Assembly: GCF_041296385.1 (NCBI RefSeq)
Contig: NC_091019.1
Coordinates: 8,145,264 to 8,209,263, forward strand
DNA: 64,000 nt
Reading direction: 5' to 3'
Origin: Aphelocoma coerulescens
Lineage: Eukaryota; Chordata; Aves; Passeriformes; Corvidae
Shown here: positions 1 to 45,313 of the stretch, piece by piece
Position numbering within the stretch: the stretch's first letter is position 1
How the letters are laid out: each line of letters begins with the position of its first letter
Position numbers and translations under genes: made by a program
The notes under the pieces: model-generated
Told to the model about the DNA's origin: nothing
Database searches by the model: none
The model's input: the letters and a program-made list of their open reading frames with translations, nothing else

Positions 1-11
1 GAGAAGGATAT

Positions 12-2282: not shown

Positions 2283-2300
2283 GCAAGTATTAGCCCCCCA
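2283..2300 (-). promoter_or_regulatory. Weak candidate primer-binding site
   Basis: On the minus strand, one base past the inferred 5' LTR end (CA at 2303-2302), the sequence begins TGGGGGGCTAATACTTGC. The TGGGGG start resembles a proline-tRNA primer site, but the rest matches poorly. The position is right and the sequence is degenerate. Confidence 0.3.
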
Positions 2301-2301
2301 G

Positions 2302-2765: not shown

Positions 2766-3139
2766 CTCCCACACCTTCTTGGAGGTGGGACGGCTCCCCC
2801 CGGCACAGCACCTGGAAAAAAACCCCCGTATATGCACACACACACCTGCACTTACCCTGCACTCTGCTGCACACCCCCCCCCCCCCCCCCCCACTAACCC
2901 CCGCCTCCATATCCCTACCATGCCACTCTCAGCTGCCCTGCCCCCACCGTCCCAGCGGGCTGGCAGCACCCACTCCTCACATGCTTCCCCATGCCTTGCA
3001 TTTCCTTCCTGCCCCCTCTGTAGCCTTCCCTCTACCTGCCTTTTCTCCATTGCCTTGCATTGACTTGCTCACCCATCCCCCACCTGACTTCCTTTCACAG
3101 TCATCTAGGTCTGGCCTTACCTTTTCTTTTCCTTCTAGG
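2766..3139. repeat. C-rich low-complexity stretch with short CA run
   Basis: Strongly C/T-rich on the plus strand. It holds a short CA run near 2834-2846, the pure C run at 2874-2892, and many CCC and CCTTCC words. Long open frames here on both strands come from the biased composition, and their reading frame changes from unit to unit with C-run length, so they are not genes. Confidence 0.8.
2874..2892. repeat. C run, 19 C
   Basis: Uninterrupted run of 19 C (G on the minus strand). Its length differs among units. Together with the unit 4 and unit 5 module change, it accounts for all unit length differences. Confidence 0.95.
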
Positions 3140-5699: not shown

Positions 5700-6409
5700 C
5701 TGCAGCACTCTAGCTTACTTCTCTGACAGACATGCCATCCCATTGTGGGCTCTCACAGCTCGGTTGCAAGCTATCTTGGTTGCAAGCTACTCTTCTGAAG
5801 AAAAGAACTATAAGAAAAAGCCAATGCTGGGCTGCGCCTTCCCCTTGCTTCACGTAAAGCCACCCCATGCTGCACTCTGCACTTCCCTTCTCCGCCCCAT
5901 TGACCACTGTGTTTTCTGAATCTCGAAGCCTAAAGTTCAGCGATATTGTTTCAGCGGAGGGCTGGAAGAGGAATAGGTAGCAGCACAGCTAAAAGTAGCT
6001 GTCGCTGAGCTTTCTCCTTCCCAAAGCTAATGTGAATACGGCAGGTAGGCGAGTGGCAGCTACCCTCCTCTCTCAGCTTATATGCTGCATGCACGAGCCC
6101 GGTGCTCTGCGCCGTCGTTCACCCTCTTAAGTACCCTTGTCGCGCTTTCATTCTGCCAGAGTCGAACAGTCGTCTACTTCTCGCACAGAGAGCACAGTGC
6201 CGGCAGCGCAACCCTCCAGGCGGCTGCTTCTGCCGAAAGACGCCTGGGCTATGCACTTTCCCTCTCAGTGCTAGGTAGATCTACATTCTGTCTGTGTTGT
6301 GCTCTGAATCTTAACGAAAACATTCTCAGCTAAGTCTCGCACACAGAAGAGTTTTAGGTCAACGAGCTTGCCCAAAGATTGCCCCCGTCCCTATACAAAC
6401 TTATATTTA
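5700..6409 (+). repeat. Satellite module C, diverged partial copy
   Basis: Similar to 7151-7861 (end of module A) at an offset of about 1451. Matched landmarks are GCTGGGCTGC (5827 and 7278), GGAAGAG-AATAGGTAGCAGCACA, the CGCGCTTTCATTCTGCC block, TGCACTTTCCCTC, and GAGTTTTAGGTC versus CAGTTTTAGGTC. Many substitutions and indels make it much more diverged than A is from B. It is less CpG-rich than A and B. Confidence 0.75.
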
Positions 6410-7861
6410 CACCCCATTCCAGTGGTAATCCTCTTTCCTTTACAGCCTGCACAGCGCTGTCAGATCGCGGTGCTCTCCGCACCTGCCTTCTCACTCCCAA
6501 GTACCAGCGCGAACCTTACAGCCTTGCAGGCAGCGAAGACACCGGTAGGCATCTCGCACAGAAGAACGGGCCAGGACGCAAAGATGGTCTTCCTTTCTCC
6601 TCGTTGTCGCCCACATTGTGGTGATGTGTTGAAAGTCTTGGCCAGCGAAAGGCTAATCCAGCAAGTGCTTCTCTCTTGACGCATTTTGCTGAGCGAGAGC
6701 TACACGGATAGTTTAGAATCTGTGAAACAGCAAGACAATGATTGCACGTCGAGCTGAGCAAAAGCCGTGCACGGCACACCGTGGCTGCGTGCAGTGTTCA
6801 TGCGGAAGAGCGGCAAAGCTCCAAGCCCTCGCTGGGCTTCCGTTCTGCCCGGAGCACAGGCGGCGAAGAACGAAGCAGCTGGGCACCGGCTTCATGTAGC
6901 CAGTGGAGCGAATTGCAAATGTCCAGCCGAGAGCTGCTTCACAAGCAGATTCAGCTGAGAACGCTCTGGCTGCTTCAGAAAGGAAGGCGCAGCCCTTGCA
7001 CTCCAGCACACAACCGGGCCAGAAACAGGTCCTTCAACCTTCAGTGCTGCCGACTCCATGCAGCTTGAGCACACCCAGAAGGACGCGTCCAGAAAGAAGG
7101 CGTTCTTCGAGTACCCCCCTCCTCCAAGGAGCCTCGAAACTGAGCACAACACGCTGCGGCTCGGCAGCTTCCTTCTCAGCGAGACGTACCGTCACATTTA
7201 TGCACTCTCGCAGCTCCGTTGCCCACTTGCAGCAGCTGCTGCTACCGAAGCAAAAGGCTCCAGAAGTAAAAGCCACTGCTGGGCTGCACGTTCCCTCTGC
7301 CTCACGTAAAGCAGCAGAAACTGGCCGCTGCACTCTGTCCTTCCATTCTCTGCCGCACCTGCCACTGTCATCTCTGCGTCTCCAAGCATAAACCTGGGCA
7401 CAAATGCTTTCCGGGGAAAGCTGGAAGAGAAATAGGTAGCAGCACAAGTAGCTGCAAGTGGAACTTCCTGGTTTCAACTGCTAACGTGAGTCCGCAAAGA
7501 AGCGAGTGACGGCCACGCTTCCCCTTGCAGCCTGTGCGATGCGCACAGCAGCTCGGGGCTCTGCCTTCATTCCTACGCTCTCCGTACCACGGTCGCGCTT
7601 TCATTCTGCCGGAGTCGAAGCGTCGCCTACTTCTCGCACAAGAGCATTGTGCCCGCAGCGAAATGCTCCAGCCGACTGCTTCTGCCGGAACACGCCCTGG
7701 CCTATGCACTTTCCCTCGCAGCGACATACACCAGCACACTGGGTCTTTCTTGTCGTCCAAATGTAAAGGGAAAGGTTCTCCGCTCCGTCTGGCACAGAGA
7801 ACAGTTTTAGGTCGACAAGCTCACCCAGAGCTCACCCTCGACGCGTGGAAACCCGCATTTG
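6410..7861 (+). repeat. Satellite module A (CpG-rich)
   Basis: Starts at the landmark CACCCCATTCC, which recurs at 7862 in module B. It runs 1452 bp to the start of B; a 12-bp insertion of CTC repeats in B sets the later period at 1464. Bases 6724-7325 match B at 8188-8789 with one difference (T at 6801, C at 8265), whereas 6410-6723 is clearly more diverged. CpG is dense: I counted 13 in 7561-7680. Weaker internal similarity suggests about four ~366-bp monomers. Open frames on both strands overlap throughout and are compositional. Confidence 0.85.
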
Positions 7862-8788
7862 CACCCCATTCCAGCGGCAGCCCGTCCTTCCTTTACAGCC
7901 TGCACAGCGCCGTCAGATCGCGGTGCTCTCCGCACCTGCCTTCTCACTTCCAAGTACCAGCGCGAACCTTACAGCCTTGCAGGCAGCGAAGACGCGGCGA
8001 GGCGTCTCGCACAGAAGAACGGGCCAGGACGCAAAGATGGTCTTCCTTTCTCCTCCTCCTCCTCCTCCTTGCCCGAGTGGTGGTGCTGTGCTGAAAGTCT
8101 TGGCCGGCGAAAGGCTTATGCAGCAAGTGCTTCTCTCCTGACGCATTTCGCTGAGCGAGAGAGCTGCACGGACACTTTCGACTCTGGGAAACAGCAAGAC
8201 AATGATTGCACGTCGAGCTGAGCAAAAGCCGTGCACGGCACACCGTGGCTGCGTGCAGTGTTCACGCGGAAGAGCGGCAAAGCTCCAAGCCCTCGCTGGG
8301 CTTCCGTTCTGCCCGGAGCACAGGCGGCGAAGAACGAAGCAGCTGGGCACCGGCTTCATGTAGCCAGTGGAGCGAATTGCAAATGTCCAGCCGAGAGCTG
8401 CTTCACAAGCAGATTCAGCTGAGAACGCTCTGGCTGCTTCAGAAAGGAAGGCGCAGCCCTTGCACTCCAGCACACAACCGGGCCAGAAACAGGTCCTTCA
8501 ACCTTCAGTGCTGCCGACTCCATGCAGCTTGAGCACACCCAGAAGGACGCGTCCAGAAAGAAGGCGTTCTTCGAGTACCCCCCTCCTCCAAGGAGCCTCG
8601 AAACTGAGCACAACACGCTGCGGCTCGGCAGCTTCCTTCTCAGCGAGACGTACCGTCACATTTATGCACTCTCGCAGCTCCGTTGCCCACTTGCAGCAGC
8701 TGCTGCTACCGAAGCAAAAGGCTCCAGAAGTAAAAGCCACTGCTGGGCTGCACGTTCCCTCTGCCTCACGTAAAGCAGCAGAAACTGG
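7862..8788 (+). repeat. Satellite module B (CpG-rich, 3'-truncated)
   Basis: Second copy of the 1464-bp module, ending abruptly after GCAGAAACTGG, about 540 bp before the module end present in A. The diagnostic base is C at 8265. It holds a CTC microsatellite near 8051-8070 that module A lacks. The truncation point is the entry into the inverted segment. Confidence 0.9.
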
Positions 8789-9070
8789 CTACTTGTGCTG
8801 CTACCTATTTCTCTTCCAGCTTTCCCCGGAAAGCATTTGTGCCCAGGTTTATGCTTGGAGACGCAGAGATGACAGTGGCAGGTGCGGCAGAGAATGGAAG
8901 GACAGAGTGCAGCGGCCAGTTTCTGCTGCTTTACGTGAGGCAGAGGGAACGTGCAGCCCAGCAGTGGCTTTTACTTCTGGAGCCTTTTGCTTCGGTAGCA
9001 GCAGCTGCTGCAAGTGGGCAACGGAGCTGCGAGAGTGCATAAATGTGACGGTACGTCTCGCTGAGAAGGA
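8789..9070 (-). repeat. Inverted copy of module A end (fold-back segment)
   Basis: These 282 bp are the reverse complement of 7170-7451 in module A. Because module B contains the same sequence, 8916-9070 is also the exact reverse complement, as far as I can read, of 8634-8788. This gives a 155-bp-arm inverted repeat with a 127-bp spacer. The last 8 bases (GAGAAGGA) overlap the chosen start of the next unit, and the truncated LTR follows. Confidence 0.92.
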
Positions 9071-9073
9071 TAT

Positions 9074-9508
9074 AACATTCTTCGACTACAGGGAGAGTCC
9101 ATGGGGCTTTTCCCATGGGGTCTCTCAAACAGATGTAGGATGCAGCTCCCTTTTTATGCCAAGTTCCCGGCCCCAGCACCCTCTTCCTTTTCCCCACTGG
9201 CTGAGGTACTCAGGAGATACAGACTTCCCAAAGTGCCTACTCTATGCCCTCCTCTAATATGCACCCCCCTTTTGGTATTGAAAAGAAAGAAAAAGAAACT
9301 ATTCCTAATTCTGTTAAGTGTTTGTTGCCTTGTTGTAGGTTCAGGAATTTAACAGGGCCTTGATTAATCAACAGTCTCTGTTGGTTACCAACAGTTCTAG
9401 AGAACTAATAGTTTCTTCTGTTACTTCACTATCGATAAGTTCCTAGCCTTGTCTACAGGCAGATTCACATGGTCTGTTTGTAAAGACTCATTCGTCTCAT
9501 TCCTTTTA
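9074..9508 (-). repeat. 3' LTR, truncated (unit 2)
   Basis: Copy of the 12-446 LTR. The join to the preceding fold-back segment at 9063-9073 is visible in full here. Confidence 0.75.
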
Positions 9509-26908: not shown

Positions 26909-27190
26909 CTACTTGTGCTGCTACCTATTTCTCTTCCAGCTTTCCCCGGAAAGCATTTGTGCCCAGGTTTATGCTTGGAGACGCAGAGATGACAGTGGCA
27001 GGTGCGGCAGAGAATGGAAGGACAGAGTGCAGCGGCCAGTTTCTGCTGCTTTACGTGAGGCAGAGGGAACGTGCAGCCCAGCAGTGGCTTTTACTTCTGG
27101 AGCCTTTTGCTTCGGTAGCAGCAGCTGCTGCAAGTGGGCAACGGAGCTGCGAGAGTGCATAAATGTGACGGTACGTCTCGCTGAGAAGGA
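26909..27190 (-). repeat. Fold-back segment (unit 3)
   Basis: Reverse complement of 25290-25571. Confidence 0.92.
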
Positions 27191-27193
27191 TAT

Positions 27194-27628
27194 AACATTC
27201 TTCGACTACAGGGAGAGTCCATGGGGCTTTTCCCATGGGGTCTCTCAAACAGATGTAGGATGCAGCTCCCTTTTTATGCCAAGTTCCCGGCCCCAGCACC
27301 CTCTTCCTTTTCCCCACTGGCTGAGGTACTCAGGAGATACAGACTTCCCAAAGTGCCTACTCTATGCCCTCCTCTAATATGCACCCCCCTTTTGGTATTG
27401 AAAAGAAAGAAAAAGAAACTATTCCTAATTCTGTTAAGTGTTTGTTGCCTTGTTGTAGGTTCAGGAATTTAACAGGGCCTTGATTAATCAACAGTCTCTG
27501 TTGGTTACCAACAGTTCTAGAGAACTAATAGTTTCTTCTGTTACTTCACTATCGATAAGTTCCTAGCCTTGTCTACAGGCAGATTCACATGGTCTGTTTG
27601 TAAAGACTCATTCGTCTCATTCCTTTTA
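27194..27628 (-). repeat. 3' LTR, truncated (unit 4)
   Basis: Copy of 12-446. Confidence 0.75.
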
Positions 27629-27661
27629 ATCCCTCCTCTTTTTATTTTGCCTCTTTTTTCT

Positions 27662-29312
27662 TTACAAACCTTAATTACCATTGATTTAATTTTTTCTTCT
27701 TGAGTCTTCTTGGATTTTGCTATTATTTGCAGTGACATCCTCATCTATCCTTTTGTAGACATTTCTGGATCAGGTAGGCATGGCTGCTACCGGCATCCCC
27801 TTGACCACCTGCTGAAAGAGCTGCACTCAGCAAGGTGTCACACATGATAAAAAGATTAGAGTTGCTATAGCATGTAAGAGGAGAAATCATATTCATTTAG
27901 CCCATAGCTGGCCAGTTAACCATGAAAACATATCCCATTCCCATCCTTTCCACATTTGGACAGGTCCATGAGCTGACGTTATTTCCTTTGTTATTTTTTT
28001 GACCACTTTTCCGCTGTCATCTGCTTGCAAACAGCAGCTCGAGTCATTTAATTTCCCACAAACTCCTCCTTCTTCTGCTAACAGATAATCTAGTACCATC
28101 CAATGTTGAAATACCGCTTTCCTCGTTTAAGTGGGTTGGTCAGCAAGAAAGTCAAGAGCTGTGGCTGTTTGGTTGGTTATTATTTCCGAGACAGCTTGTA
28201 ACCTAATTATCCCATTCAAATGATAAATGGGTTCCCAGGCATCTGGGATTAATTCCTTAGGATTCCAAGTGGCTGGTCCATCCTGTTGTGGAACTGGTTC
28301 TGGTGGCCATTCATCTTTTCCCCATTTTGGGGTGCTCCCTCCAGCCAGGGCTGCATCAGTTGACTGCTTTTCTCTAATTAAATCATCACAGATTTTGATT
28401 CCTAAGCGATTTCCCTGAACTTGTGGCAACAAAAAGAACAACGGGCTAATATACCCCATACCCATACCATATCCCTGACCAGTTTGGAGGTAACCTGAGC
28501 TAAGCATGTTGGCCACAAATGCAATAATGTCCTTTCAAAGCCTGTGTTCCATTATCAAAGGGGCCTTTCTACCTTTTGTCATCAATTGGTAGGTCAAAAT
28601 ACAGCGGGATTCCTGGGCCTAACGGTCCTCCAATAGTTGCTCCACCATAAGGGTCACAGTATTTGCGTTTCCAAGCTCCCAAATGGGGTTCCCATCTACA
28701 TTTACGTCTGCAAGCTGTTTGGTTGGATTTGGAGCAGAACTCACTAAGAGGGTTTGAGTTCCAATCTGGTGTTGCCATTCCCACTGATAATCATGAGCAA
28801 CATGTGTTCTACTTGTGGAATTTTCGTGGGGACATCTTAAAAATAGGTGGTCAAAAAAACCCCTTGTCCCTCCCCATTGCTTTACAGGCTTCCAAATATT
28901 TTTGGTAAGTGTGTTAAGAACACTTTACCCAGCTACCATTAGTGAGCTTAACAGGTATTTGATTGCATTTGTCTTGATATTTGGAACAATTGTAAGGAGG
29001 GCAACTGGGGGTCCAAGCCCAATTGTTTAAACCCAGAGGGGAAGTAAATTCATACATGTCTTTTCCTACATAGACCCCCTCTGTCCTATTTAGGCAATAA
29101 GTGCCTGTTGGAGAAGAATGAAGTGGCCGTGAACTTCCTTCTTTGGCCCCAAATCCCGTCCTAGTATGGACCCCACCATTTAGGTTCAGCTGGGCTAGCC
29201 AACCATGGCCACTCTTCAGATCCTCCTGGCCCTCCACAGAGCCAGCAATTGCTAAGGTTAAAAACTTTTGCTACTTCTTCTCCTAAGGCTGCAAATTGAT
29301 TCTCTCACACCT
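27662..29312 (-). pseudogene. env: env relic (unit 4)
   Basis: Fragments at 29237-28914, 28784-28569, 28516-28127, 28099-27893 and 27744-27541. A private change at 28591 alters one Pro to Leu in the second fragment, which is already a dead reading frame. Confidence 0.85.
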
Positions 29313-29483
29313 GGCCTAAACTCAGCTGACCATATAAAAGTAGAATTATTAATGAAAATATTTTAATTGTGTGATCTAGTTAGCTAGTCTAATTTTCATG
29401 TTGTCTTCTGCACCACCTGTGGCAAATGAAGACACATAAAACCACTTAACCTAAAACAATGGCCGCAAGTATTAGCCCCCCAG

Positions 29484-29947
29484 TGAGGAGACAGAGGCAT
29501 CCTACAACATTCTTCAACTACAGGGAGAGGCCATGGGGCTTTTCCTGTGCAGTCTCTCTCAAATGATTGTGGGACACTACTCCCATTTTATGCTAAGTTC
29601 CCAGCCATAGCACCCTCTTCCTTTTCCCCTTTGGCTGAGGTACTCAGGAGGTAAAGACTTCCTGAATTGCCTACTCTATGCCCCCATGTAATATGCACCC
29701 CCCTTTTGGTATAGAAAAGGAGGAAGAAGAAACTATTCCTAATTCTATTAAGCCTTTGTTGCCTTGCTCTAGGTTCAGGAATTTAACAGGGCCTTGGCTG
29801 AGCAACAGTCTCTGTTGATTAGTAACAGTTTCTAAAACTAATACTTTCTTCTATTACTTCCCTATCTGTTACTGCTCTATGCTAGCCTTGTCTAAGAGTG
29901 GATTCACACAGTCTGTTTGTAAAGACACATCCATCTTACTCCTTTCA
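29484..29947 (-). repeat. 5' LTR (unit 4)
   Basis: Copy of 2302-2765. Confidence 0.7.
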
Positions 29948-32879
29948 CTCCCACACCTTCTTGGAGGTGGGACGGCTCCCCCCGGCACAGCACCTGGAAA
30001 AAAACCCCCGTATATGCACACACACACCTGCACTTACCCTGCACTCTGCTGCACACCCCCCCCCCCCCCCCCACTAACCCCCGCCTCCATATCCCTACCA
30101 TGCCACTCTCAGCTGCCCTGCCCCCACCGTCCCAGCGGGCTGGCAGCACCCACTCCTCACATGCTTCCCCATGCCTTGCATTTCCTTCCTGCCCCCTCTG
30201 TAGCCTTCCCTCTACCTGCCTTTTCTCCATTGCCTTGCATTGACTTGCTCACCCATCCCCCACCTGACTTCCTTTCACAGTCATCTAGGTCTGGCCTTAC
30301 CTTTTCTTTTCCTTCTAGGACCCTCATTGCCTTGCCTCACCTCGCCAAGCCACCACTTGCCTTGCCTTGCCCTTGAACCCCTTGCCTTCCATTACCTTGC
30401 TCACCCCTCCCCCACCTGGAATTCAAGACCCCTTTTCAATGACATTTCTGGGCCTTGCCCTGCCCTTTCTGCTCCTCCTAGGAATCTCAAGGCTCTCAAG
30501 TATCTCCGGTGTTTCAGGATCACATGAGAGGAAGACCAGGCAAGGACACATGTTGCCACACTCATCTATACGGGCAGCCTTTGTCTGGGACCAATCTTTG
30601 CATGTCTTGAATCTTGGAAGGGCAATTCACATTTTGCCCTTGAGCTCCGGGACCAGAAGGAGAGTTCTTTTGCATACAAAGGAAAGCAGGTAGCTCAAGT
30701 CTCTTAGGTGCAGATTAGAGATGACTCACACAGGATCAAGGCCACACAGAGCAGTTGGGCCTAGCCACTTTTGTGTACCAGAAGTCCTTGAATGTACTTC
30801 TCACCTGCCTTGCCTCGCCTTGCCTTGGCAACGCAACAGTTTCCTTGCCTTGCCCTGCTAGCCCTCCGTAGCCTTGCATTCCCTTGCATGCCCATGCCAC
30901 ACCCTTGACCTGCCTACTGCTTTCCTCCAGGGCCTTGGCTTGCCGAGCCCTTCTTGTTTCTGCCTGGCCTACCCATCAGTGGACTTTCCTTCCTCCTAGA
31001 GGCAAGCCTTGCCTCTAACTTCTGGGCCTTCTCTTGCCTACCACTCCATTTATTTCCCCCTCACTGCTCTGGCCTTGCCTACCTCTTGCTTGACTTGCCT
31101 GCAATTGCCTGCACTTGGTTTGCAGTGCCTTGCCTGCATGGAAGGCAAGGTAAAGAGTGGTAGGCAGGGCAAAGCCAGCAAGTTGTAGGTAGTGCGAGAC
31201 GTAGGCAAAGGAAGCAAAGCAAGGGTAGCTTAGGAAAAACTAGGCAAGGCACTGAAGGCAAGGCAAGGCCAAGGGACTTGCAGTGCCTTTCCTTGGGAAG
31301 GTAAGGACATAGAGCCAGTGTTGGTGGAGCAGATGTTAAGGTACCATGGGGAGGAATAGCCCAGTGAGATATTTCTCTCCTGGCCCCTTCTGTGTAGGGG
31401 CAATTGTTGGACATATTCAATACTAGAGGTGTATCAGTCCCTGGATATGTTGTATTTTGGAGGAGGGGATGCTGTTTCTTTGGAGATAGGCTTGTACTTG
31501 CTCTCTTTGGCAAGGAAAGCAGGTTTGGATGCGCTCATGAGGTGCTCTTAGGGATTTTAAAGGCTTTTCCCAACAGACAGTTCTCTGGGTTAGAGCTGTT
31601 GAGCTTTCAGCAGGAATGCAAAGGCCAAGCTTGTGACCCTTTTTTCCTGGTGCCTTTAGTGTGTGAGCAGTCCCTGGTGCTGTTGTCTTTGGATCCTGAC
31701 TCTGGGAGAGGGAAGGCTTAGGATGGTACCTAGAGCTGAGAAGGAAAGTGCTGAGGGCAGCGTGTGCGCTGCTAGTTTGAGGGGTGCAGTTGAAGTTGTA
31801 GGCAGCAAGAGCTTTCTCAGCTGGCACTGTTGTGAGCTCTGTTTTTGCCAGATGGTTTCAAGTTGGTAGGTGGACTCTGCCAGAGAGAAAAGATTTGTTT
31901 GGGCAAAGAGGTTTGTCTGGCTCTTGGAGTGTGGTGCAAAAAAGAGTCTGCTCTTGGAAGGGGAAGATTCAGGAAAACTTTTTGTTCTGACACCGTTGAT
32001 TTGAGTGCAGGGACGTTTCTAACTTGCCTCTGCCCTTGGGGTGGTTTTGAGCAGCGAAAGCTGCGTTTCCTTCTTTGGCAAGTCGTCAGTGCCATCGTGT
32101 GGTTGTTGCGATGAGTGCTGACAGTGCCCAGGAAAAAGCCAAGTGCTTCATTGGCACGGCCCCAGTCGTGTGGGAGCAGTTGGTGGAAGAACTCCGCTGT
32201 GCAGTCTGCCTCTTGGAGACGTAAAAGAATGTGTTCCTATGCATAGCGGGGAAGCAAGAGGAATCTTTTCATTGTTGGCTGTGCAGTTTCTAAGCGGCAA
32301 AAGTAAAGGCAGTTCCAGCATGGCCTCTTTCTTTCAGAACCTTTTCTGTGCCATCATGAAAATGCTCAACATGTAACTCGCACCCATTGAACTGCATCAA
32401 AGGTCCTGGAGCTATGCACTTTCCTTCAAGCTCTATGTACCATCTCTCCACCTCTCGCGGATCCCAAACCCCTTCCAAACATCCAGCAGCTGCTTCTGCA
32501 CGCAGGGAACAAATGCTAGAACAAGGCGTTGGCCTTCATAGTCCCTCTAAAATCTGTAAACTAAGCAAAACATACCAGTGACCAGCATTTTCCTTCGCAA
32601 ATATATATATAGAGCATCATCACATTCTGTCAAAGTGGGTAAGTTCACCCTTGCAGTGCAGCTTTTCCAGCCGCAGTTCGGACTGAGAGATGTGCCAGGA
32701 GAGAAAGCATTTGTTGACTTTCCTTCTTCTCTGGAACACTTGATACTCGCAGTGCAATCACTTCCACACAACTTCGGTGTGCCCAGGTTCAAGCAGCTAG
32801 AGCTCACAGAGATGGGAAAGTCAGGGCAGAAGACGTTTCAAAAAAACGTTACAGCAGCATTAAAACTGTGCACAGCAGT
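29948..32879. repeat. C-rich, CCTTG tract and spacer (unit 4)
   Basis: CCTTG-rich part 30320-31290 and spacer 31291-32879. No difference from unit 1 noticed apart from the C run. Confidence 0.8.
30056..30072. repeat. C run, 17 C
   Basis: Unit 4 length plus the missing 1464-bp module equals 9060, which is 9043 plus this 17-C run. Confidence 0.95.
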
Positions 32880-33589
32880 CTGCAGCACTCTAGCTTACTT
32901 CTCTGACAGACATGCCATCCCATTGTGGGCTCTCACAGCTCGGTTGCAAGCTATCTTGGTTGCAAGCTACTCTTCTGAAGAAAAGAACTATAAGAAAAAG
33001 CCAATGCTGGGCTGCGCCTTCCCCTTGCTTCACGTAAAGCCACCCCATGCTGCACTCTGCACTTCCCTTCTCCGCCCCATTGACCACTGTGTTTTCTGAA
33101 TCTCGAAGCCTAAAGTTCAGCGATATTGTTTCAGCGGAGGGCTGGAAGAGGAATAGGTAGCAGCACAGCTAAAAGTAGCTGTCGCTGAGCTTTCTCCTTC
33201 CCAAAGCTAATGTGAATACGGCAGGTAGGCGAGTGGCAGCTACCCTCCTCTCTCAGCTTATATGCTGCATGCACGAGCCCGGTGCTCTGCGCCGTCGTTC
33301 ACCCTCTTAAGTACCCTTGTCGCGCTTTCATTCTGCCAGAGTCGAACAGTCGTCTACTTCTCGCACAGAGAGCACAGTGCCGGCAGCGCAACCCTCCAGG
33401 CGGCTGCTTCTGCCGAAAGACGCCTGGGCTATGCACTTTCCCTCTCAGTGCTAGGTAGATCTACATTCTGTCTGTGTTGTGCTCTGAATCTTAACGAAAA
33501 CATTCTCAGCTAAGTCTCGCACACAGAAGAGTTTTAGGTCAACGAGCTTGCCCAAAGATTGCCCCCGTCCCTATACAAACTTATATTTA
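32880..33589 (+). repeat. Satellite module C (unit 4)
   Basis: Copy of 5700-6409, followed by a single hybrid module instead of two. Confidence 0.8.
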
Positions 33590-34504
33590 CACCCCATTCC
33601 AGTGGTAATCCTCTTTCCTTTACAGCCTGCACAGCGCTGTCAGATCGCGGTGCTCTCCGCACCTGCCTTCTCACTCCCAAGTACCAGCGCGAACCTTACA
33701 GCCTTGCAGGCAGCGAAGACACCGGTAGGCATCTCGCACAGAAGAACGGGCCAGGACGCAAAGATGGTCTTCCTTTCTCCTCGTTGTCGCCCACATTGTG
33801 GTGATGTGTTGAAAGTCTTGGCCAGCGAAAGGCTAATCCAGCAAGTGCTTCTCTCTTGACGCATTTTGCTGAGCGAGAGCTACACGGATAGTTTAGAATC
33901 TGTGAAACAGCAAGACAATGATTGCACGTCGAGCTGAGCAAAAGCCGTGCACGGCACACCGTGGCTGCGTGCAGTGTTCATGCGGAAGAGCGGCAAAGCT
34001 CCAAGCCCTCGCTGGGCTTCCGTTCTGCCCGGAGCACAGGCGGCGAAGAACGAAGCAGCTGGGCACCGGCTTCATGTAGCCAGTGGAGCGAATTGCAAAT
34101 GTCCAGCCGAGAGCTGCTTCACAAGCAGATTCAGCTGAGAACGCTCTGGCTGCTTCAGAAAGGAAGGCGCAGCCCTTGCACTCCAGCACACAACCGGGCC
34201 AGAAACAGGTCCTTCAACCTTCAGTGCTGCCGACTCCATGCAGCTTGAGCACACCCAGAAGGACGCGTCCAGAAAGAAGGCGTTCTTCGAGTACCCCCCT
34301 CCTCCAAGGAGCCTCGAAACTGAGCACAACACGCTGCGGCTCGGCAGCTTCCTTCTCAGCGAGACGTACCGTCACATTTATGCACTCTCGCAGCTCCGTT
34401 GCCCACTTGCAGCAGCTGCTGCTACCGAAGCAAAAGGCTCCAGAAGTAAAAGCCACTGCTGGGCTGCACGTTCCCTCTGCCTCACGTAAAGCAGCAGAAA
34501 CTGG
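33590..34504 (+). repeat. Hybrid A/B satellite module
   Basis: It starts as module A: it has the A-type head and the A-type T at 33981. It ends as module B, passing into the fold-back segment at 34505 with no A-type tail. The switch lies within 33982-34505, where A and B are identical, so the exact point cannot be read. The result is a clean loss of 1464 bp. Confidence 0.95.
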
Positions 34505-34786
34505 CTACTTGTGCTGCTACCTATTTCTCTTCCAGCTTTCCCCGGAAAGCATTTGTGCCCAGGTTTATGCTTGGAGACGCAGAGATGACAGTGGCAGGTG
34601 CGGCAGAGAATGGAAGGACAGAGTGCAGCGGCCAGTTTCTGCTGCTTTACGTGAGGCAGAGGGAACGTGCAGCCCAGCAGTGGCTTTTACTTCTGGAGCC
34701 TTTTGCTTCGGTAGCAGCAGCTGCTGCAAGTGGGCAACGGAGCTGCGAGAGTGCATAAATGTGACGGTACGTCTCGCTGAGAAGGA
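34505..34786 (-). repeat. Fold-back segment (unit 4)
   Basis: Same 282 bp as 8789-9070. The A-type tail that serves as its full-length template is absent from this unit, so only the 155-bp pairing with the hybrid module end remains. Confidence 0.92.
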
Positions 34787-34789
34787 TAT

Positions 34790-35224
34790 AACATTCTTCG
34801 ACTACAGGGAGAGTCCATGGGGCTTTTCCCATGGGGTCTCTCAAACAGATGTAGGATGCAGCTCCCTTTTTATGCCAAGTTCCCGGCCCCAGCACCCTCT
34901 TCCTTTTCCCCACTGGCTGAGGTACTCAGGAGATACAGACTTCCCAAAGTGCCTACTCTATGCCCTCCTCTAATATGCACCCCCCTTTTGGTATTGAAAA
35001 GAAAGAAAAAGAAACTATTCCTAATTCTGTTAAGTGTTTGTTGCCTTGTTGTAGGTTCAGGAATTTAACAGGGCCTTGATTAATCAACAGTCTCTGTTGG
35101 TTACCAACAGTTCTAGAGAACTAATAGTTTCTTCTGTTACTTCACTATCGATAAGTTCCTAGCCTTGTCTACAGGCAGATTCACATGGTCTGTTTGTAAA
35201 GACTCATTCGTCTCATTCCTTTTA
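34790..35224 (-). repeat. 3' LTR, truncated (unit 5)
   Basis: Copy of 12-446. Confidence 0.75.
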
Positions 35225-35257
35225 ATCCCTCCTCTTTTTATTTTGCCTCTTTTTTCT

Positions 35258-36908
35258 TTACAAACCTTAATTACCATTGATTTAATTTTTTCTTCTTGAG
35301 TCTTCTTGGATTTTGCTATTATTTGCAGTGACATCCTCATCTATCCTTTTGTAGACATTTCTGGATCAGGTAGGCATGGCTGCTACCGGCATCCCCTTGA
35401 CCACCTGCTGAAAGAGCTGCACTCAGCAAGGTGTCACACATGATAAAAAGATTAGAGTTGCTATAGCATGTAAGAGGAGAAATCATATTCATTTAGCCCA
35501 TAGCTGGCCAGTTAACCATGAAAACATATCCCATTCCCATCCTTTCCACATTTGGACAGGTCCATGAGCTGACGTTATTTCCTTTGTTATTTTTTTGACC
35601 ACTTTTCCGCTGTCATCTGCTTGCAAACAGCAGCTCGAGTCATTTAATTTCCCACAAACTCCTCCTTCTTCTGCTAACAGATAATCTAGTACCATCCAAT
35701 GTTGAAATACCGCTTTCCTCGTTTAAGTGGGTTGGTCAGCAAGAAAGTCAAGAGCTGTGGCTGTTTGGTTGGTTATTATTTCCGAGACAGCTTGTAACCT
35801 AATTATCCCATTCAAATGATAAATGGGTTCCCAGGCATCTGGGATTAATTCCTTAGGATTCCAAGTGGCTGGTCCATCCTGTTGTGGAACTGGTTCTGGT
35901 GGCCATTCATCTTTTCCCCATTTTGGGGTGCTCCCTCCAGCCAGGGCTGCATCAGTTGACTGCTTTTCTCTAATTAAATCATCACAGATTTTGATTCCTA
36001 AGCGATTTCCCTGAACTTGTGGCAACAAAAAGAACAACGGGCTAATATACCCCATACCCATACCATATCCCTGACCAGTTTGGAGGTAACCTGAGCTAAG
36101 CATGTTGGCCACAAATGCAATAATGTCCTTTCAAAGCCTGTGTTCCATTATCAAAGGGGCCTTTCTACCTTTTGTCATCAATTGGTGGGTCAAAATACAG
36201 CGGGATTCCTGGGCCTAACGGTCCTCCAATAGTTGCTCCACCATAAGGGTCACAGTATTTGCGTTTCCAAGCTCCCAAATGGGGTTCCCATCTACATTTA
36301 CGTCTGCAAGCTGTTTGGTTGGATTTGGAGCAGAACTCACTAAGAGGGTTTGAGTTCCAATCTGGTGTTGCCATTCCCACTGATAATCATGAGCAACATG
36401 TGTTCTACTTGTGGAATTTTCGTGGGGACATCTTAAAAATAGGTGGTCAAAAAAACCCCTTGTCCCTCCCCATTGCTTTACAGGCTTCCAAATATTTTTG
36501 GTAAGTGTGTTAAGAACACTTTACCCAGCTACCATTAGTGAGCTTAACAGGTATTTGATTGCATTTGTCTTGATATTTGGAACAATTGTAAGGAGGGCAA
36601 CTGGGGGTCCAAGCCCAATTGTTTAAACCCAGAGGGGAAGTAAATTCATACATGTCTTTTCCTACATAGACCCCCTCTGTCCTATTTAGGCAATAAGTGC
36701 CTGTTGGAGAAGAATGAAGTGGCCGTGAACTTCCTTCTTTGGCCCCAAATCCCGTCCTAGTATGGACCCCACCATTTAGGTTCAGCTGGGCTAGCCAACC
36801 ATGGCCACTCTTCAGATCCTCCTGGCCCTCCACAGAGCCAGCAATTGCTAAGGTTAAAAACTTTTGCTACTTCTTCTCCTAAGGCTGCAAATTGATTCTC
36901 TCACACCT
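35258..36908 (-). pseudogene. env: env relic (unit 5)
   Basis: Fragments at 36833-36510, 36380-36165, 36112-35723, 35695-35489 and 35340-35137, with breaks identical to unit 1. Confidence 0.85.
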
Positions 36909-37079
36909 GGCCTAAACTCAGCTGACCATATAAAAGTAGAATTATTAATGAAAATATTTTAATTGTGTGATCTAGTTAGCTAGTCTAATTTTCATGTTGT
37001 CTTCTGCACCACCTGTGGCAAATGAAGACACATAAAACCACTTAACCTAAAACAATGGCCGCAAGTATTAGCCCCCCAG

Positions 37080-37543
37080 TGAGGAGACAGAGGCATCCTA
37101 CAACATTCTTCAACTACAGGGAGAGGCCATGGGGCTTTTCCTGTGCAGTCTCTCTCAAATGATTGTGGGACACTACTCCCATTTTATGCTAAGTTCCCAG
37201 CCATAGCACCCTCTTCCTTTTCCCCTTTGGCTGAGGTACTCAGGAGGTAAAGACTTCCTGAATTGCCTACTCTATGCCCCCATGTAATATGCACCCCCCT
37301 TTTGGTATAGAAAAGGAGGAAGAAGAAACTATTCCTAATTCTATTAAGCCTTTGTTGCCTTGCTCTAGGTTCAGGAATTTAACAGGGCCTTGGCTGAGCA
37401 ACAGTCTCTGTTGATTAGTAACAGTTTCTAAAACTAATACTTTCTTCTATTACTTCCCTATCTGTTACTGCTCTATGCTAGCCTTGTCTAAGAGTGGATT
37501 CACACAGTCTGTTTGTAAAGACACATCCATCTTACTCCTTTCA
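37080..37543 (-). repeat. 5' LTR (unit 5)
   Basis: Copy of 2302-2765. Confidence 0.7.
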
Positions 37544-40478
37544 CTCCCACACCTTCTTGGAGGTGGGACGGCTCCCCCCGGCACAGCACCTGGAAAAAAA
37601 CCCCCGTATATGCACACACACACCTGCACTTACCCTGCACTCTGCTGCACACCCCCCCCCCCCCCCCCCCCACTAACCCCCGCCTCCATATCCCTACCAT
37701 GCCACTCTCAGCTGCCCTGCCCCCACCGTCCCAGCGGGCTGGCAGCACCCACTCCTCACATGCTTCCCCATGCCTTGCATTTCCTTCCTGCCCCCTCTGT
37801 AGCCTTCCCTCTACCTGCCTTTTCTCCATTGCCTTGCATTGACTTGCTCACCCATCCCCCACCTGACTTCCTTTCACAGTCATCTAGGTCTGGCCTTACC
37901 TTTTCTTTTCCTTCTAGGACCCTCATTGCCTTGCCTCACCTCGCCAAGCCACCACTTGCCTTGCCTTGCCCTTGAACCCCTTGCCTTCCATTACCTTGCT
38001 CACCCCTCCCCCACCTGGAATTCAAGACCCCTTTTCAATGACATTTCTGGGCCTTGCCCTGCCCTTTCTGCTCCTCCTAGGAATCTCAAGGCTCTCAAGT
38101 ATCTCCGGTGTTTCAGGATCACATGAGAGGAAGACCAGGCAAGGACACATGTTGCCACACTCATCTATACGGGCAGCCTTTGTCTGGGACCAATCTTTGC
38201 ATGTCTTGAATCTTGGAAGGGCAATTCACATTTTGCCCTTGAGCTCCGGGACCAGAAGGAGAGTTCTTTTGCATACAAAGGAAAGCAGGTAGCTCAAGTC
38301 TCTTAGGTGCAGATTAGAGATGACTCACACAGGATCAAGGCCACACAGAGCAGTTGGGCCTAGCCACTTTTGTGTACCAGAAGTCCTTGAATGTACTTCT
38401 CACCTGCCTTGCCTCGCCTTGCCTTGGCAACGCAACAGTTTCCTTGCCTTGCCCTGCTAGCCCTCCGTAGCCTTGCATTCCCTTGCATGCCCATGCCACA
38501 CCCTTGACCTGCCTACTGCTTTCCTCCAGGGCCTTGGCTTGCCGAGCCCTTCTTGTTTCTGCCTGGCCTACCCATCAGTGGACTTTCCTTCCTCCTAGAG
38601 GCAAGCCTTGCCTCTAACTTCTGGGCCTTCTCTTGCCTACCACTCCATTTATTTCCCCCTCACTGCTCTGGCCTTGCCTACCTCTTGCTTGACTTGCCTG
38701 CAATTGCCTGCACTTGGTTTGCAGTGCCTTGCCTGCATGGAAGGCAAGGTAAAGAGTGGTAGGCAGGGCAAAGCCAGCAAGTTGTAGGTAGTGCGAGACG
38801 TAGGCAAAGGAAGCAAAGCAAGGGTAGCTTAGGAAAAACTAGGCAAGGCACTGAAGGCAAGGCAAGGCCAAGGGACTTGCAGTGCCTTTCCTTGGGAAGG
38901 TAAGGACATAGAGCCAGTGTTGGTGGAGCAGATGTTAAGGTACCATGGGGAGGAATAGCCCAGTGAGATATTTCTCTCCTGGCCCCTTCTGTGTAGGGGC
39001 AATTGTTGGACATATTCAATACTAGAGGTGTATCAGTCCCTGGATATGTTGTATTTTGGAGGAGGGGATGCTGTTTCTTTGGAGATAGGCTTGTACTTGC
39101 TCTCTTTGGCAAGGAAAGCAGGTTTGGATGCGCTCATGAGGTGCTCTTAGGGATTTTAAAGGCTTTTCCCAACAGACAGTTCTCTGGGTTAGAGCTGTTG
39201 AGCTTTCAGCAGGAATGCAAAGGCCAAGCTTGTGACCCTTTTTTCCTGGTGCCTTTAGTGTGTGAGCAGTCCCTGGTGCTGTTGTCTTTGGATCCTGACT
39301 CTGGGAGAGGGAAGGCTTAGGATGGTACCTAGAGCTGAGAAGGAAAGTGCTGAGGGCAGCGTGTGCGCTGCTAGTTTGAGGGGTGCAGTTGAAGTTGTAG
39401 GCAGCAAGAGCTTTCTCAGCTGGCACTGTTGTGAGCTCTGTTTTTGCCAGATGGTTTCAAGTTGGTAGGTGGACTCTGCCAGAGAGAAAAGATTTGTTTG
39501 GGCAAAGAGGTTTGTCTGGCTCTTGGAGTGTGGTGCAAAAAAGAGTCTGCTCTTGGAAGGGGAAGATTCAGGAAAACTTTTTGTTCTGACACCGTTGATT
39601 TGAGTGCAGGGACGTTTCTAACTTGCCTCTGCCCTTGGGGTGGTTTTGAGCAGCGAAAGCTGCGTTTCCTTCTTTGGCAAGTCGTCAGTGCCATCGTGTG
39701 GTTGTTGCGATGAGTGCTGACAGTGCCCAGGAAAAAGCCAAGTGCTTCATTGGCACGGCCCCAGTCGTGTGGGAGCAGTTGGTGGAAGAACTCCGCTGTG
39801 CAGTCTGCCTCTTGGAGACGTAAAAGAATGTGTTCCTATGCATAGCGGGGAAGCAAGAGGAATCTTTTCATTGTTGGCTGTGCAGTTTCTAAGCGGCAAA
39901 AGTAAAGGCAGTTCCAGCATGGCCTCTTTCTTTCAGAACCTTTTCTGTGCCATCATGAAAATGCTCAACATGTAACTCGCACCCATTGAACTGCATCAAA
40001 GGTCCTGGAGCTATGCACTTTCCTTCAAGCTCTATGTACCATCTCTCCACCTCTCGCGGATCCCAAACCCCTTCCAAACATCCAGCAGCTGCTTCTGCAC
40101 GCAGGGAACAAATGCTAGAACAAGGCGTTGGCCTTCATAGTCCCTCTAAAATCTGTAAACTAAGCAAAACATACCAGTGACCAGCATTTTCCTTCGCAAA
40201 TATATATATAGAGCATCATCACATTCTGTCAAAGTGGGTAAGTTCACCCTTGCAGTGCAGCTTTTCCAGCCGCAGTTCGGACTGAGAGATGTGCCAGGAG
40301 AGAAAGCATTTGTTGACTTTCCTTCTTCTCTGGAACACTTGATACTCGCAGTGCAATCACTTCCACACAACTTCGGTGTGCCCAGGTTCAAGCAGCTAGA
40401 GCTCACAGAGATGGGAAAGTCAGGGCAGAAGACGTTTCAAAAAAACGTTACAGCAGCATTAAAACTGTGCACAGCAGT
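37544..40478. repeat. C-rich, CCTTG tract and spacer (unit 5)
   Basis: CCTTG-rich part 37919-38889 and spacer 38890-40478. Confidence 0.8.
37652..37671. repeat. C run, 20 C
   Basis: The longest C run in the window. Confidence 0.95.
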
Positions 40479-41188
40479 CTGCAGCACTCTAGCTTACTTC
40501 TCTGACAGACATGCCATCCCATTGTGGGCTCTCACAGCTCGGTTGCAAGCTATCTTGGTTGCAAGCTACTCTTCTGAAGAAAAGAACTATAAGAAAAAGC
40601 CAATGCTGGGCTGCGCCTTCCCCTTGCTTCACGTAAAGCCACCCCATGCTGCACTCTGCACTTCCCTTCTCCGCCCCATTGACCACTGTGTTTTCTGAAT
40701 CTCGAAGCCTAAAGTTCAGCGATATTGTTTCAGCGGAGGGCTGGAAGAGGAATAGGTAGCAGCACAGCTAAAAGTAGCTGTCGCTGAGCTTTCTCCTTCC
40801 CAAAGCTAATGTGAATACGGCAGGTAGGCGAGTGGCAGCTACCCTCCTCTCTCAGCTTATATGCTGCATGCACGAGCCCGGTGCTCTGCGCCGTCGTTCA
40901 CCCTCTTAAGTACCCTTGTCGCGCTTTCATTCTGCCAGAGTCGAACAGTCGTCTACTTCTCGCACAGAGAGCACAGTGCCGGCAGCGCAACCCTCCAGGC
41001 GGCTGCTTCTGCCGAAAGACGCCTGGGCTATGCACTTTCCCTCTCAGTGCTAGGTAGATCTACATTCTGTCTGTGTTGTGCTCTGAATCTTAACGAAAAC
41101 ATTCTCAGCTAAGTCTCGCACACAGAAGAGTTTTAGGTCAACGAGCTTGCCCAAAGATTGCCCCCGTCCCTATACAAACTTATATTTA
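40479..41188 (+). repeat. Satellite module C (unit 5)
   Basis: Copy of 5700-6409. Confidence 0.8.
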
Positions 41189-42640
41189 CACCCCATTCCA
41201 GTGGTAATCCTCTTTCCTTTACAGCCTGCACAGCGCTGTCAGATCGCGGTGCTCTCCGCACCTGCCTTCTCACTCCCAAGTACCAGCGCGAACCTTACAG
41301 CCTTGCAGGCAGCGAAGACACCGGTAGGCATCTCGCACAGAAGAACGGGCCAGGACGCAAAGATGGTCTTCCTTTCTCCTCGTTGTCGCCCACATTGTGG
41401 TGATGTGTTGAAAGTCTTGGCCAGCGAAAGGCTAATCCAGCAAGTGCTTCTCTCTTGACGCATTTTGCTGAGGGAGAGCTACACGGATAGTTTAGAATCT
41501 GTGAAACAGCAAGACAATGATTGCACGTCGAGCTGAGCAAAAGCCGTGCACGGCACACCGTGGCTGCGTGCAGTGTTCATGCGGAAGAGCGGCAAAGCTC
41601 CAAGCCCTCGCTGGGCTTCCGTTCTGCCCGGAGCACAGGCGGCGAAGAACGAAGCAGCTGGGCACCGGCTTCATGTAGCCAGTGGAGCGAATTGCAAATG
41701 TCCAGCCGAGAGCTGCTTCACAAGCAGATTCAGCTGAGAACGCTCTGGCTGCTTCAGAAAGGAAGGCGCAGCCCTTGCACTCCAGCACACAACCGGGCCA
41801 GAAACAGGTCCTTCAACCTTCAGTGCTGCCGACTCCATGCAGCTTGAGCACACCCAGAAGGACGCGTCCAGAAAGAAGGCGTTCTTCGAGTACCCCCCTC
41901 CTCCAAGGAGCCTCGAAACTGAGCACAACACGCTGCGGCTCGGCAGCTTCCTTCTCAGCGAGACGTACCGTCACATTTATGCACTCTCGCAGCTCCGTTG
42001 CCCACTTGCAGCAGCTGCTGCTACCGAAGCAAAAGGCTCCAGAAGTAAAAGCCACTGCTGGGCTGCACGTTCCCTCTGCCTCACGTAAAGCAGCAGAAAC
42101 TGGCCGCTGCACTCTGTCCTTCCATTCTCTGCCGCACCTGCCACTGTCATCTCTGCGTCTCCAAGCATAAACCTGGGCACAAATGCTTTCCGGGGAAAGC
42201 TGGAAGAGAAATAGGTAGCAGCACAAGTAGCTGCAAGTGGAACTTCCTGGTTTCAACTGCTAACGTGAGTCCGCAAAGAAGCGAGTGACGGCCACGCTTC
42301 CCCTTGCAGCCTGTGCGATGCGCACAGCAGCTCGGGGCTCTGCCTTCATTCCTACGCTCTCCGTACCACGGTCGCGCTTTCATTCTGCCGGAGTCGAAGC
42401 GTCGCCTACTTCTCGCACAAGAGCATTGTGCCCGCAGCGAAATGCTCCAGCCGACTGCTTCTGCCGGAACACGCCCTGGCCTATGCACTTTCCCTCGCAG
42501 CGACATACACCAGCACACTGGGTCTTTCTTGTCGTCCAAATGTAAAGGGAAAGGTTCTCCGCTCCGTCTGGCACAGAGAACAGTTTTAGGTCGACAAGCT
42601 CACCCAGAGCTCACCCTCGACGCGTGGAAACCCGCATTTG
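41189..42640 (+). repeat. Satellite module A (unit 5)
   Basis: A-type head, A-type T at the diagnostic site and A-type tail. G at 41473 replaces C. Confidence 0.9.
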
Positions 42641-44104
42641 CACCCCATTCCAGCGGCAGCCCGTCCTTCCTTTACAGCCTGCACAGCGCCGTCAGATCGC
42701 GGTGCTCTCCGCACCTGCCTTCTCACTTCCAAGTACCAGCGCGAACCTTACAGCCTTGCAGGCAGCGAAGACGCGGCGAGGCGTCTCGCACAGAAGAACG
42801 GGCCAGGACGCAAAGATGGTCTTCCTTTCTCCTCCTCCTCCTCCTCCTTGCCCGAGTGGTGGTGCTGTGCTGAAAGTCTTGGCCGGCGAAAGGCTTATGC
42901 AGCAAGTGCTTCTCTCCTGACGCATTTCGCTGAGCGAGAGAGCTGCACGGACACTTTCGACTCTGGGAAACAGCAAGACAATGATTGCACGTCGAGCTGA
43001 GCAAAAGCCGTGCACGGCACACCGTGGCTGCGTGCAGTGTTCACGCGGAAGAGCGGCAAAGCTCCAAGCCCTCGCTGGGCTTCCGTTCTGCCCGGAGCAC
43101 AGGCGGCGAAGAACGAAGCAGCTGGGCACCGGCTTCATGTAGCCAGTGGAGCGAATTGCAAATGTCCAGCCGAGAGCTGCTTCACAAGCAGATTCAGCTG
43201 AGAACGCTCTGGCTGCTTCAGAAAGGAAGGCGCAGCCCTTGCACTCCAGCACACAACCGGGCCAGAAACAGGTCCTTCAACCTTCAGTGCTGCCGACTCC
43301 ATGCAGCTTGAGCACACCCAGAAGGACGCGTCCAGAAAGAAGGCGTTCTTCGAGTACCCCCCTCCTCCAAGGAGCCTCGAAACTGAGCACAACACGCTGC
43401 GGCTCGGCAGCTTCCTTCTCAGCGAGACGTACCGTCACATTTATGCACTCTCGCAGCTCCGTTGCCCACTTGCAGCAGCTGCTGCTACCGAAGCAAAAGG
43501 CTCCAGAAGTAAAAGCCACTGCTGGGCTGCACGTTCCCTCTGCCTCACGTAAAGCAGCAGAAACTGGCCGCTGCACTCTGTCCTTCCATTCTCTGCCGCA
43601 CCTGCCACTGTCATCTCTGCGTCTCCAAGCATAAACCTGGGCACAAATGCTTTCCGGGGAAAGCTGGAAGAGAAATAGGTAGCAGCACAAGTAGCTGCAA
43701 GTGGAACTTCCTGGTTTCAACTGCTAACGTGAGTCCGCAAAGAAGCGAGTGACGGCCACGCTTCCCCTTGCAGCCTGTGCGATGCGCACAGCAGCTCGGG
43801 GCTCTGCCTTCATTCCTACGCTCTCCGTACCACGGTCGCGCTTTCATTCTGCCGGAGTCGAAGCGTCGCCTACTTCTCGCACAAGAGCATTGTGCCCGCA
43901 GCGAAATGCTCCAGCCGACTGCTTCTGCCGGAACACGCCCTGGCCTATGCACTTTCCCTCGCAGCGACATACACCAGCACACTGGGTCTTTCTTGTCGTC
44001 CAAATGTAAAGGGAAAGGTTCTCCGCTCCGTCTGGCACAGAGAACAGTTTTAGGTCGACAAGCTCACCCAGAGCTCACCCTCGACGCGTGGAAACCCGCA
44101 TTTG
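42641..44104 (+). repeat. Extra hybrid B/A satellite module (1464 bp)
   Basis: It starts as module B (CTC microsatellite, C at 43044) but continues into the A-type tail after 43568 instead of the fold-back segment. It is the mirror image of the hybrid in unit 4, and the switch lies within 43045-43568, the equivalent interval. Confidence 0.95.
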
Positions 44105-45031
44105 CACCCCATTCCAGCGGCAGCCCGTCCTTCCTTTACAGCCTGCACAGCGCCGTCAGATCGCGGTGCTCTCCGCACCTGCCTTCTCACTTCCAAGTAC
44201 CAGCGCGAACCTTACAGCCTTGCAGGCAGCGAAGACGCGGCGAGGCGTCTCGCACAGAAGAACGGGCCAGGACGCAAAGATGGTCTTCCTTTCTCCTCCT
44301 CCTCCTCCTCCTTGCCCGAGTGGTGGTGCTGTGCTGAAAGTCTTGGCCGGCGAAAGGCTTATGCAGCAAGTGCTTCTCTCCTGACGCATTTCGCTGAGCG
44401 AGAGAGCTGCACGGACACTTTCGACTCTGGGAAACAGCAAGACAATGATTGCACGTCGAGCTGAGCAAAAGCCGTGCACGGCACACCGTGGCTGCGTGCA
44501 GTGTTCACGCGGAAGAGCGGCAAAGCTCCAAGCCCTCGCTGGGCTTCCGTTCTGCCCGGAGCACAGGCGGCGAAGAACGAAGCAGCTGGGCACCGGCTTC
44601 ATGTAGCCAGTGGAGCGAATTGCAAATGTCCAGCCGAGAGCTGCTTCACAAGCAGATTCAGCTGAGAACGCTCTGGCTGCTTCAGAAAGGAAGGCGCAGC
44701 CCTTGCACTCCAGCACACAACCGGGCCAGAAACAGGTCCTTCAACCTTCAGTGCTGCCGACTCCATGCAGCTTGAGCACACCCAGAAGGACGCGTCCAGA
44801 AAGAAGGCGTTCTTCGAGTACCCCCCTCCTCCAAGGAGCCTCGAAACTGAGCACAACACGCTGCGGCTCGGCAGCTTCCTTCTCAGCGAGACGTACCGTC
44901 ACATTTATGCACTCTCGCAGCTCCGTTGCCCACTTGCAGCAGCTGCTGCTACCGAAGCAAAAGGCTCCAGAAGTAAAAGCCACTGCTGGGCTGCACGTTC
45001 CCTCTGCCTCACGTAAAGCAGCAGAAACTGG
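44105..45031 (+). repeat. Satellite module B (unit 5)
   Basis: B-type head and B-type truncated end. It is exactly 1464 bp downstream of the preceding module start. Confidence 0.9.
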
Positions 45032-45313
45032 CTACTTGTGCTGCTACCTATTTCTCTTCCAGCTTTCCCCGGAAAGCATTTGTGCCCAGGTTTATGCTTG
45101 GAGACGCAGAGATGACAGTGGCAGGTGCGGCAGAGAATGGAAGGACAGAGTGCAGCGGCCAGTTTCTGCTGCTTTACGTGAGGCAGAGGGAACGTGCAGC
45201 CCAGCAGTGGCTTTTACTTCTGGAGCCTTTTGCTTCGGTAGCAGCAGCTGCTGCAAGTGGGCAACGGAGCTGCGAGAGTGCATAAATGTGACGGTACGTC
45301 TCGCTGAGAAGGA
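45032..45313 (-). repeat. Fold-back segment (unit 5)
   Basis: Same 282 bp as 8789-9070. In this unit two upstream A-type tails match it in inverted orientation. Confidence 0.92.

Follow-up and report, generated by a model that had tools for sequence, protein, structure and literature searches.

A lost and a gained module in neighbouring units of a macrosatellite array of Aphelocoma coerulescens: possible routes of wrong-register recombination

Introduction

How did one shortened and one lengthened repeat unit come to lie side by side in a tandem array whose units are otherwise nearly identical? The question is raised by a stretch of 64,000 bp from the genome of the corvid Aphelocoma coerulescens (RefSeq assembly GCF_041296385.1, contig NC_091019.1, positions 8,145,264 to 8,209,263; the whole stretch is called the window below, and positions are counted from its first base). 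The window is occupied by a head-to-tail array of units of about 9,061 bp, in which unit 4 has lost and unit 5 has gained a module of about 1.46 kb. A preliminary description had explained this pair by a gene conversion or double exchange that copied the junction of the two units from a template slipped by one module and then returned to register, leaving the total length unchanged. Our analysis indicates that the exchange very probably ran through a 524-bp interval that is identical in the two modules, and we regard an account based on exchange in this interval as probable on the whole, independent of the route that was taken. The earlier interpretation is only partly supported, several routes giving the same sequence.

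Results

The array comprises seven full tandem units (1-63427), two of them of abnormal length, and the remainder up to position 64000 is formed by the first 573 bp of an eighth. Units start at positions 1, 9063, 18124, 27183, 34779, 45306, 54367 and 63428, and the lengths of units 1 to 7 are 9062, 9061, 9059, 7596, 10527, 9061 and 9061 bp. Their comparable parts are more than 99.9% identical. With seven full units of kilobase scale in head-to-tail order and at high identity, the locus is a tandem macrosatellite. Lost and gained modules aside, divergence among the seven full units amounts to six single-base variant sites (positions 1409, 3603, 4152, 4881, 5794 and 6694 of unit 1) and a poly-C tract of 16 to 20 bases. 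The unit is composed of a pair of direct repeats resembling long terminal repeats (LTRs), a linker, two modules of about 1.46 kb (A and B) and a partial third module copy.

Modules A and B of the five normal units (1, 2, 3, 6 and 7) share a stretch of exactly 524 identical bases at an offset of 1464 bp. We refer to this stretch as interval I; in unit 1 it lies at 6802-7325 in module A and at 8266-8789 in module B (plus strand, as for all units, intervals and blocks given below). The base preceding it distinguishes the two modules, being T in A and C in B. To the left of this single mismatch, 77 further bases are identical in all five normal units, and behind interval I the two sequences are unlike. 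Going from left to right, the identity of A and B is 62-94% in windows of 100 columns and then rises to 99-100%. The next longest exact A/B runs in unit 1 measure 77, 51 and 44 bp (offsets 1300-1649). There are 14 exact copies of interval I on the plus strand of the window, and allowing up to 200 mismatches, without gaps, revealed no further full-length match there. The same five units show a near-identity of A and B over 602 bp with one mismatch (6724-7325 and 8188-8789 in unit 1), perhaps the trace of an older A-B conversion that was fixed before the array spread.

Units 4 (27183-34778, 7,596 bp) and 5 (34779-45305, 10,527 bp) depart from this plan, with one and three modules respectively instead of two. 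The bases preceding the 14 copies of interval I read, in order, T C T C T C T T C C T C T C. Copy 7 (33982-34505), the only one in unit 4, has T before it and the B tail after it; its single module is thus a hybrid with an A head and a B tail, and the A-to-B switch lies somewhere within the 524 identical bases. Copy 9 (43045-43568), the middle one of unit 5, has C before it and the A tail after it, which gives the module order A, B/A hybrid, B, with a B-to-A switch somewhere within the interval. Both hybrids and both 524-bp intervals had been reported in the preliminary description, and they proved exact. That description gave 1464 bp for both the loss and the gain, a figure equal to the module offset. 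Measured against the five other units, the shortfall of unit 4 is 1,463-1,466 bp and the excess of unit 5 is 1,465-1,468 bp, a spread that arises because the poly-C tract varies between 16 and 20 bases.

The flanks of both switches match a normal unit closely. From its interval to the unit end (797 bp), unit 4 has no mismatch with unit 6 read from its B interval, and the part of unit 5 that begins at 43045 and runs to the unit end likewise agrees without mismatch with unit 6 read from its A interval. Upstream of the switches, the same comparison gives one mismatch in 3,000 bp for unit 4 (C/G, 32061/50185) and one in 3,500 bp for unit 5 (G/C, 41473/51998). Within unit 5, the identity at offset 1464 forms a single run of 1,988 bp (41581-43568).

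The sequence between copies of interval I falls into two kinds of block: y, of 940 bp, in seven identical copies, and x, of 7,071-7,075 bp, in six. In the window they are arranged as y x y x y x x y y x y x y, which differs from a regular array by a single swap of an adjacent y and x. The block x at 34506-41580 (7,075 bp) is preceded by another x, the y before it being missing, and unit 5 holds two identical y blocks (42105-43044 and 43569-44508, 940 bp each). An x-I-x junction means a module lost and a y-I-y junction a module gained, and units 4 and 5 hold one of each. With one and three modules joined within interval I, these units are structural variants of a higher-order repeat with hybrid sub-units. 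The two junctions are complementary, one passing from A to B and the other from B to A inside one and the same 524-bp interval, as reciprocal products would be, although homology alone predicts likewise. A single crossover places its products on separate molecules, whereas here both junctions lie in one window as assembled.

Such a pattern might be produced by the assembly itself, through an error in block order or through short and long units from elsewhere, or from two haplotypes, being set side by side. A block swap between three copies of one repeat is an elementary ambiguity of repeat graphs that keeps block counts, and the pattern is exactly such a swap with block counts unchanged. Unit order is moreover hard to anchor, because 63 kb hold only six single-base variants and the poly-C tract. 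However, interval I is only 524 bp long, so that any read longer than about 0.6 kb covers a junction and one of about 9.6 kb covers both, and the resolution of identical 9-kb units presumably implies a long-read assembly. False junctions are unlikely and the order of near-identical units is harder to secure; overall, we consider an artefact unlikely.

The preliminary description had further taken the equivalent bounds of the two intervals as a sign of a common event. The coordinates are as it gave them, and they add no evidence, because interval I is the only long A/B identity and thus the place where a homology-driven exchange is expected to land. Given a next longest run of 77 bp in unit 1, we rejected the matching bounds as a coincidence that needs explaining. 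The coincidence that does need explaining is that units 4 and 5 are neighbours.

We therefore enumerated possible routes on block strings, using a six-unit model array for sister crossover and eight-unit models for the move of a 1,464-bp circle and for further exchange. One ordinary unequal crossover between sister arrays was rejected: among 71 distinct recombinants of the six-unit array, none carried an adjacent short-long pair, which agrees with the earlier view that such a crossover is insufficient. Several other routes produced the observed string. A one-unit circle entering by a single slipped crossover yields it with the array one unit longer, and its irregular products are only short-long or long-short pairs. 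The same string, again with one additional unit, results from a one-unit copy inserted without replacement, and also when the two reciprocal products recombine once more. Cutting a 1,464-bp circle out of unit 4 and reinserting it in the neighbour gives the string with no net change. Copying from a slipped template was enumerated for copied and replaced lengths of up to four blocks; when two blocks are copied, the string arises if 0, 2 or 4 blocks are replaced, with a net change of +1, 0 or -1 unit. Slipped conversion or double exchange, as proposed in the preliminary description, can thus generate the string, but so can other routes. The conservation of total length is an assumption of that description: it came from a comparison with two ideal units, and routes that add a unit yield the same sequence.

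How surprising is the adjacency? One short and one long unit placed at random among seven are neighbours in 6 of 21 placements (about 0.29), and in the given order in 1/7. In simulations of plain unequal exchange, where we counted stretches of seven units of which five were normal, one was short and one was long, the frequency of adjacency was 0.265 (n=34), 0.323 (n=2013) and 0.296 (n=1094) for three rate ratios, with the short-long and long-short orders about equally frequent. With a chance adjacency of about 0.29, a model in which the two are always adjacent is favoured only about 3.5-fold.

These frequencies bear most directly on a history of two ordinary unequal exchanges, linked or not, in which the short and the long unit were made on sisters (or separately) and a later exchange at the level of whole units brought them together. 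Standard steps suffice for such a history; an exchange of reciprocal products gives NNNSLNNNN (N, normal; S, short; L, long), and the simulated adjacency is what it predicts. Abundant hybrid monomers have also been described for human centromere arrays (PMC9549924). On the other hand, the short unit stands directly before the long one in just 1 of 24 combinations that contain both (eight-unit enumeration with unweighted offsets), and the seven units in view include no additional short or long unit. We see this history as a possible, if somewhat doubtful, origin of the pair.

In the explanation we favour, a unit with two divergent modules of about 1.46 kb would offer their shared identical interval I as a recombination substrate, and homologous recombination in the wrong register between copies of this interval would create the x-I-x and y-I-y junctions. 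As the most likely route we tentatively propose one event that inserted an extra unit of about 9,061 bp into interval I of a normal unit, with the register slipped by one module. The inserted unit would be a one-unit circle or an equivalent copied intermediate. A single crossover with a circle would generate both mirror junctions together, on the same molecule and exactly one unit apart, and the array would be left one unit longer rather than equal in length. The more specific proposal, that the pair is the footprint of an extrachromosomal one-unit circle that re-entered its parent array by a single slipped crossover, is a speculative possibility. Slipped copying with one break appears to be a weaker form of a route that adds a unit, because the nascent strand would meet an in-phase interval I after one x block and end as a short and a normal unit.

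Several points weigh against insertion of an extra unit. The adjacency is reproduced by simulated plain exchange and expected by chance at about the frequency given above, and slipped integration has 524 bp of homology at its disposal as compared with 9 kb in register. The circle is a proposed intermediate, and what the array shows is a pair of chromosomal junctions compatible with it. All six variant sites lie to the left of interval I, with none to the right of unit position 6694; with no marker in the hybrid modules or tails, the donors and the tract are untraceable by sequence. Finally, the x block of unit 5 has no exact match next door: sites 1409 and 6694 separate it from unit 4, and sites 4881 and 6694 from unit 6. 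A block newly copied from a direct neighbour would have had to change afterwards, which argues mildly against such a copy. The poly-C tract has 20 bases in this block, 17 in unit 4, 18 in unit 6 and 19 in unit 1, differences that may reflect slippage or sequencing error. The closest x block in view is that of unit 1, which differs at 6694 and in the poly-C tract only. As a separate observation, only two single-base variants are common to more than one unit, 5794 in units 2 and 3 (14855 and 23914) and 4881 in units 6 and 7 (50185 and 59246). Variants shared by neighbours fit local copying, with two cases being few.

The markers of the unit 5 x block are neutral for a distant circle, and equally so for a slipped double exchange in place. 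In the latter, synthesis or exchange with a sister or homologue would run one module off over one unit and return to register in the next, with no net change in length. It yields the string when two blocks are replaced by two, and it would require no marker change in the x block of unit 5, whose template might be its own sister copy. Nonetheless, it calls for an ectopic switch in each direction and for a tract 8,539-9,587 bp long with both ends in interval I, and the same sequence is obtained by routes with fewer ectopic steps; we find it distinctly improbable. A transposition of the module by a small circle would also conserve length, on one molecule: recombination between the intervals of unit 4 would free a 1,464-bp circle (y+I), which would reinsert into interval I of unit 5. 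Of the 14 reinsertion sites in the eight-unit model, 2 lead to the short-long order and 2 to the long-short order. This route requires an excision plus a reinsertion next door and relies on a circle that is itself hypothetical, and we hold it to be very unlikely.

A candidate trigger lies at the edge of interval I. All seven units are closed by a perfect inverted repeat with arms of 156 bp and a spacer of 125 bp, the left arm being the last 156 bp of interval I. Its arms lie at 8634-8789 and 8915-9070 in unit 1, at 34350-34505 and 34631-34786 at the end of unit 4 (34350-34786 in all) and at 44877-45032 and 45158-45313 at the end of unit 5 (44877-45313). Inverted repeats are prone to breakage and to stalling of replication forks, which would make this one a plausible break site. 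A longer perfect inverted pair of 283 bp, checked in unit 1, joins 7170-7452 with 8788-9070. In inverted orientation, the unit tail repeats the last part of module A together with the first part of block y, the joint being an overlap of 2 bp (8788-8789).

Apart from the modules, each unit carries at positions 9-2770 the remains of what appears to be a retrovirus. Two direct repeats of about 450 bp (9-451 and 2321-2770 in unit 1) are 83% identical and would represent LTRs, and env-like remnants lie between them on the minus strand. The piece at 948-1352 (minus) has 14 protein matches: six are named ENR1, one is labelled simply as a hypothetical protein and seven are nameless, and the three best matches (77-81% identity) are all among the nameless seven. 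The ENR1 matches come from the songbirds Peucedramus, Orthonyx, Cardinalis, Setophaga, Cnemophilus and Cyanistes, and taken by themselves they would make a bird, perhaps a songbird, the probable host; ENR1 is presumably the name of a retroviral env. Another piece, at 714-944 (minus), matches the Pfam family TLV_coat with 20.9 bits (E 0.00017), below the curated cut-off of 22.5, and the piece at 1732-2088 (minus) had no protein match. With env-like coding pieces between LTR-like repeats, the segment qualifies as an endogenous retrovirus remnant, and by sequence similarity the unit appears to hold a decayed element related to songbird ENR1 proteins. The Pfam scan, at E 0.1, covered 79 of the 97 stop-to-stop open reading frames (ORFs) of at least 55 amino acids, among which no gag or pol family was found; two further matches (E 0.039 and 0.044) were taken as chance. 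A scan of seven ORFs at the same threshold gave no match.

The linker is rich in CTTGCC words as judged by eye (uncounted). In unit 1, the ratio of observed to expected CpG is 0.17 in the retroviral part and 0.23 in the linker (positions 9-5682), compared with 0.65-0.82 in the modules and tail (5683-9062). From this contrast, the modules could be a recent acquisition or could lack methylation in the germline. Two proteins from short contigs (P0001 and P0002) match part of the module reading frame at 8364-9257 on the plus strand with 70 and 73% identity, the aligned part being about a quarter of the query; the module thus has relatives elsewhere. Searches for module relatives gave five pattern matches in viral contigs and 64 in prokaryote genomes, none of which was confirmed. 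No tRNA gene was found in the window, Rfam gave no match at gathering thresholds, and five repeat words (telomere repeats and CR1-type octamers in doubled or nearly doubled form) had no exact match.

Discussion

A circle that re-integrates in register leaves no mark in a tandem array, whereas divergent modules that share one identical stretch mark the insertions that slipped. If the re-entry of a one-unit circle considered here is true, adjacent short-long pairs would provide a readable count of circle re-integrations in satellite arrays. Counting adjacent and separated short and long units over complete arrays could test re-integration with existing long-read assemblies. Without such an array-wide count, a single pair is an ordinary recombination product.

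Tandem circles resembling the proposed intermediate have been described in eukaryotes. Most of them are described as exact multiples of the tandem unit, and arrays have been proposed to grow by homologous integration of such circles (PMC3225859). Both features resemble the event considered here, for which the array supplies only a compatible chromosomal junction.

In an avian genome, the closest parallel we came across is the chicken HINT1W repeat, which is likewise a GC-rich tandem array of kilobase scale, with a unit of 5,648 bp in 52 copies (PMC9974502). The present array differs in unit length, and no HINT-type domain was found in the 79 scanned ORFs, where short exons would escape. We recognised no published array matching this one, judging by titles only. 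A narrow search of the open-licence literature found no report of neighbouring deletion-duplication pairs in macrosatellites; such reports may be in print.

Human ribosomal DNA offers a second comparison, since sub-repeat copy number varies between its units too (0 to 4 for the R repeat; PMC8559705). Contiguous units there resemble each other in sub-repeat length more than randomly chosen ones do, according to the same report, whereas the neighbours in our array changed in opposite directions. By analogy, a solitary short-long pair would suggest one recent event rather than drift.

The nearest relatives of the variants themselves are found in the higher-order repeats of human alpha-satellite. 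Centromere arrays are described as containing hybrid monomers together with gains and losses of whole monomers (PMC9549924), so that internal sub-units are lost and gained there as well and hybrid sub-units are formed. The sub-unit described here measures 1.46 kb within a 9-kb avian array, and its loss and gain occurred in adjoining units. Our finding is thus a new instance of hybrid-module variants, of which the adjoining loss and gain are the unusual detail.

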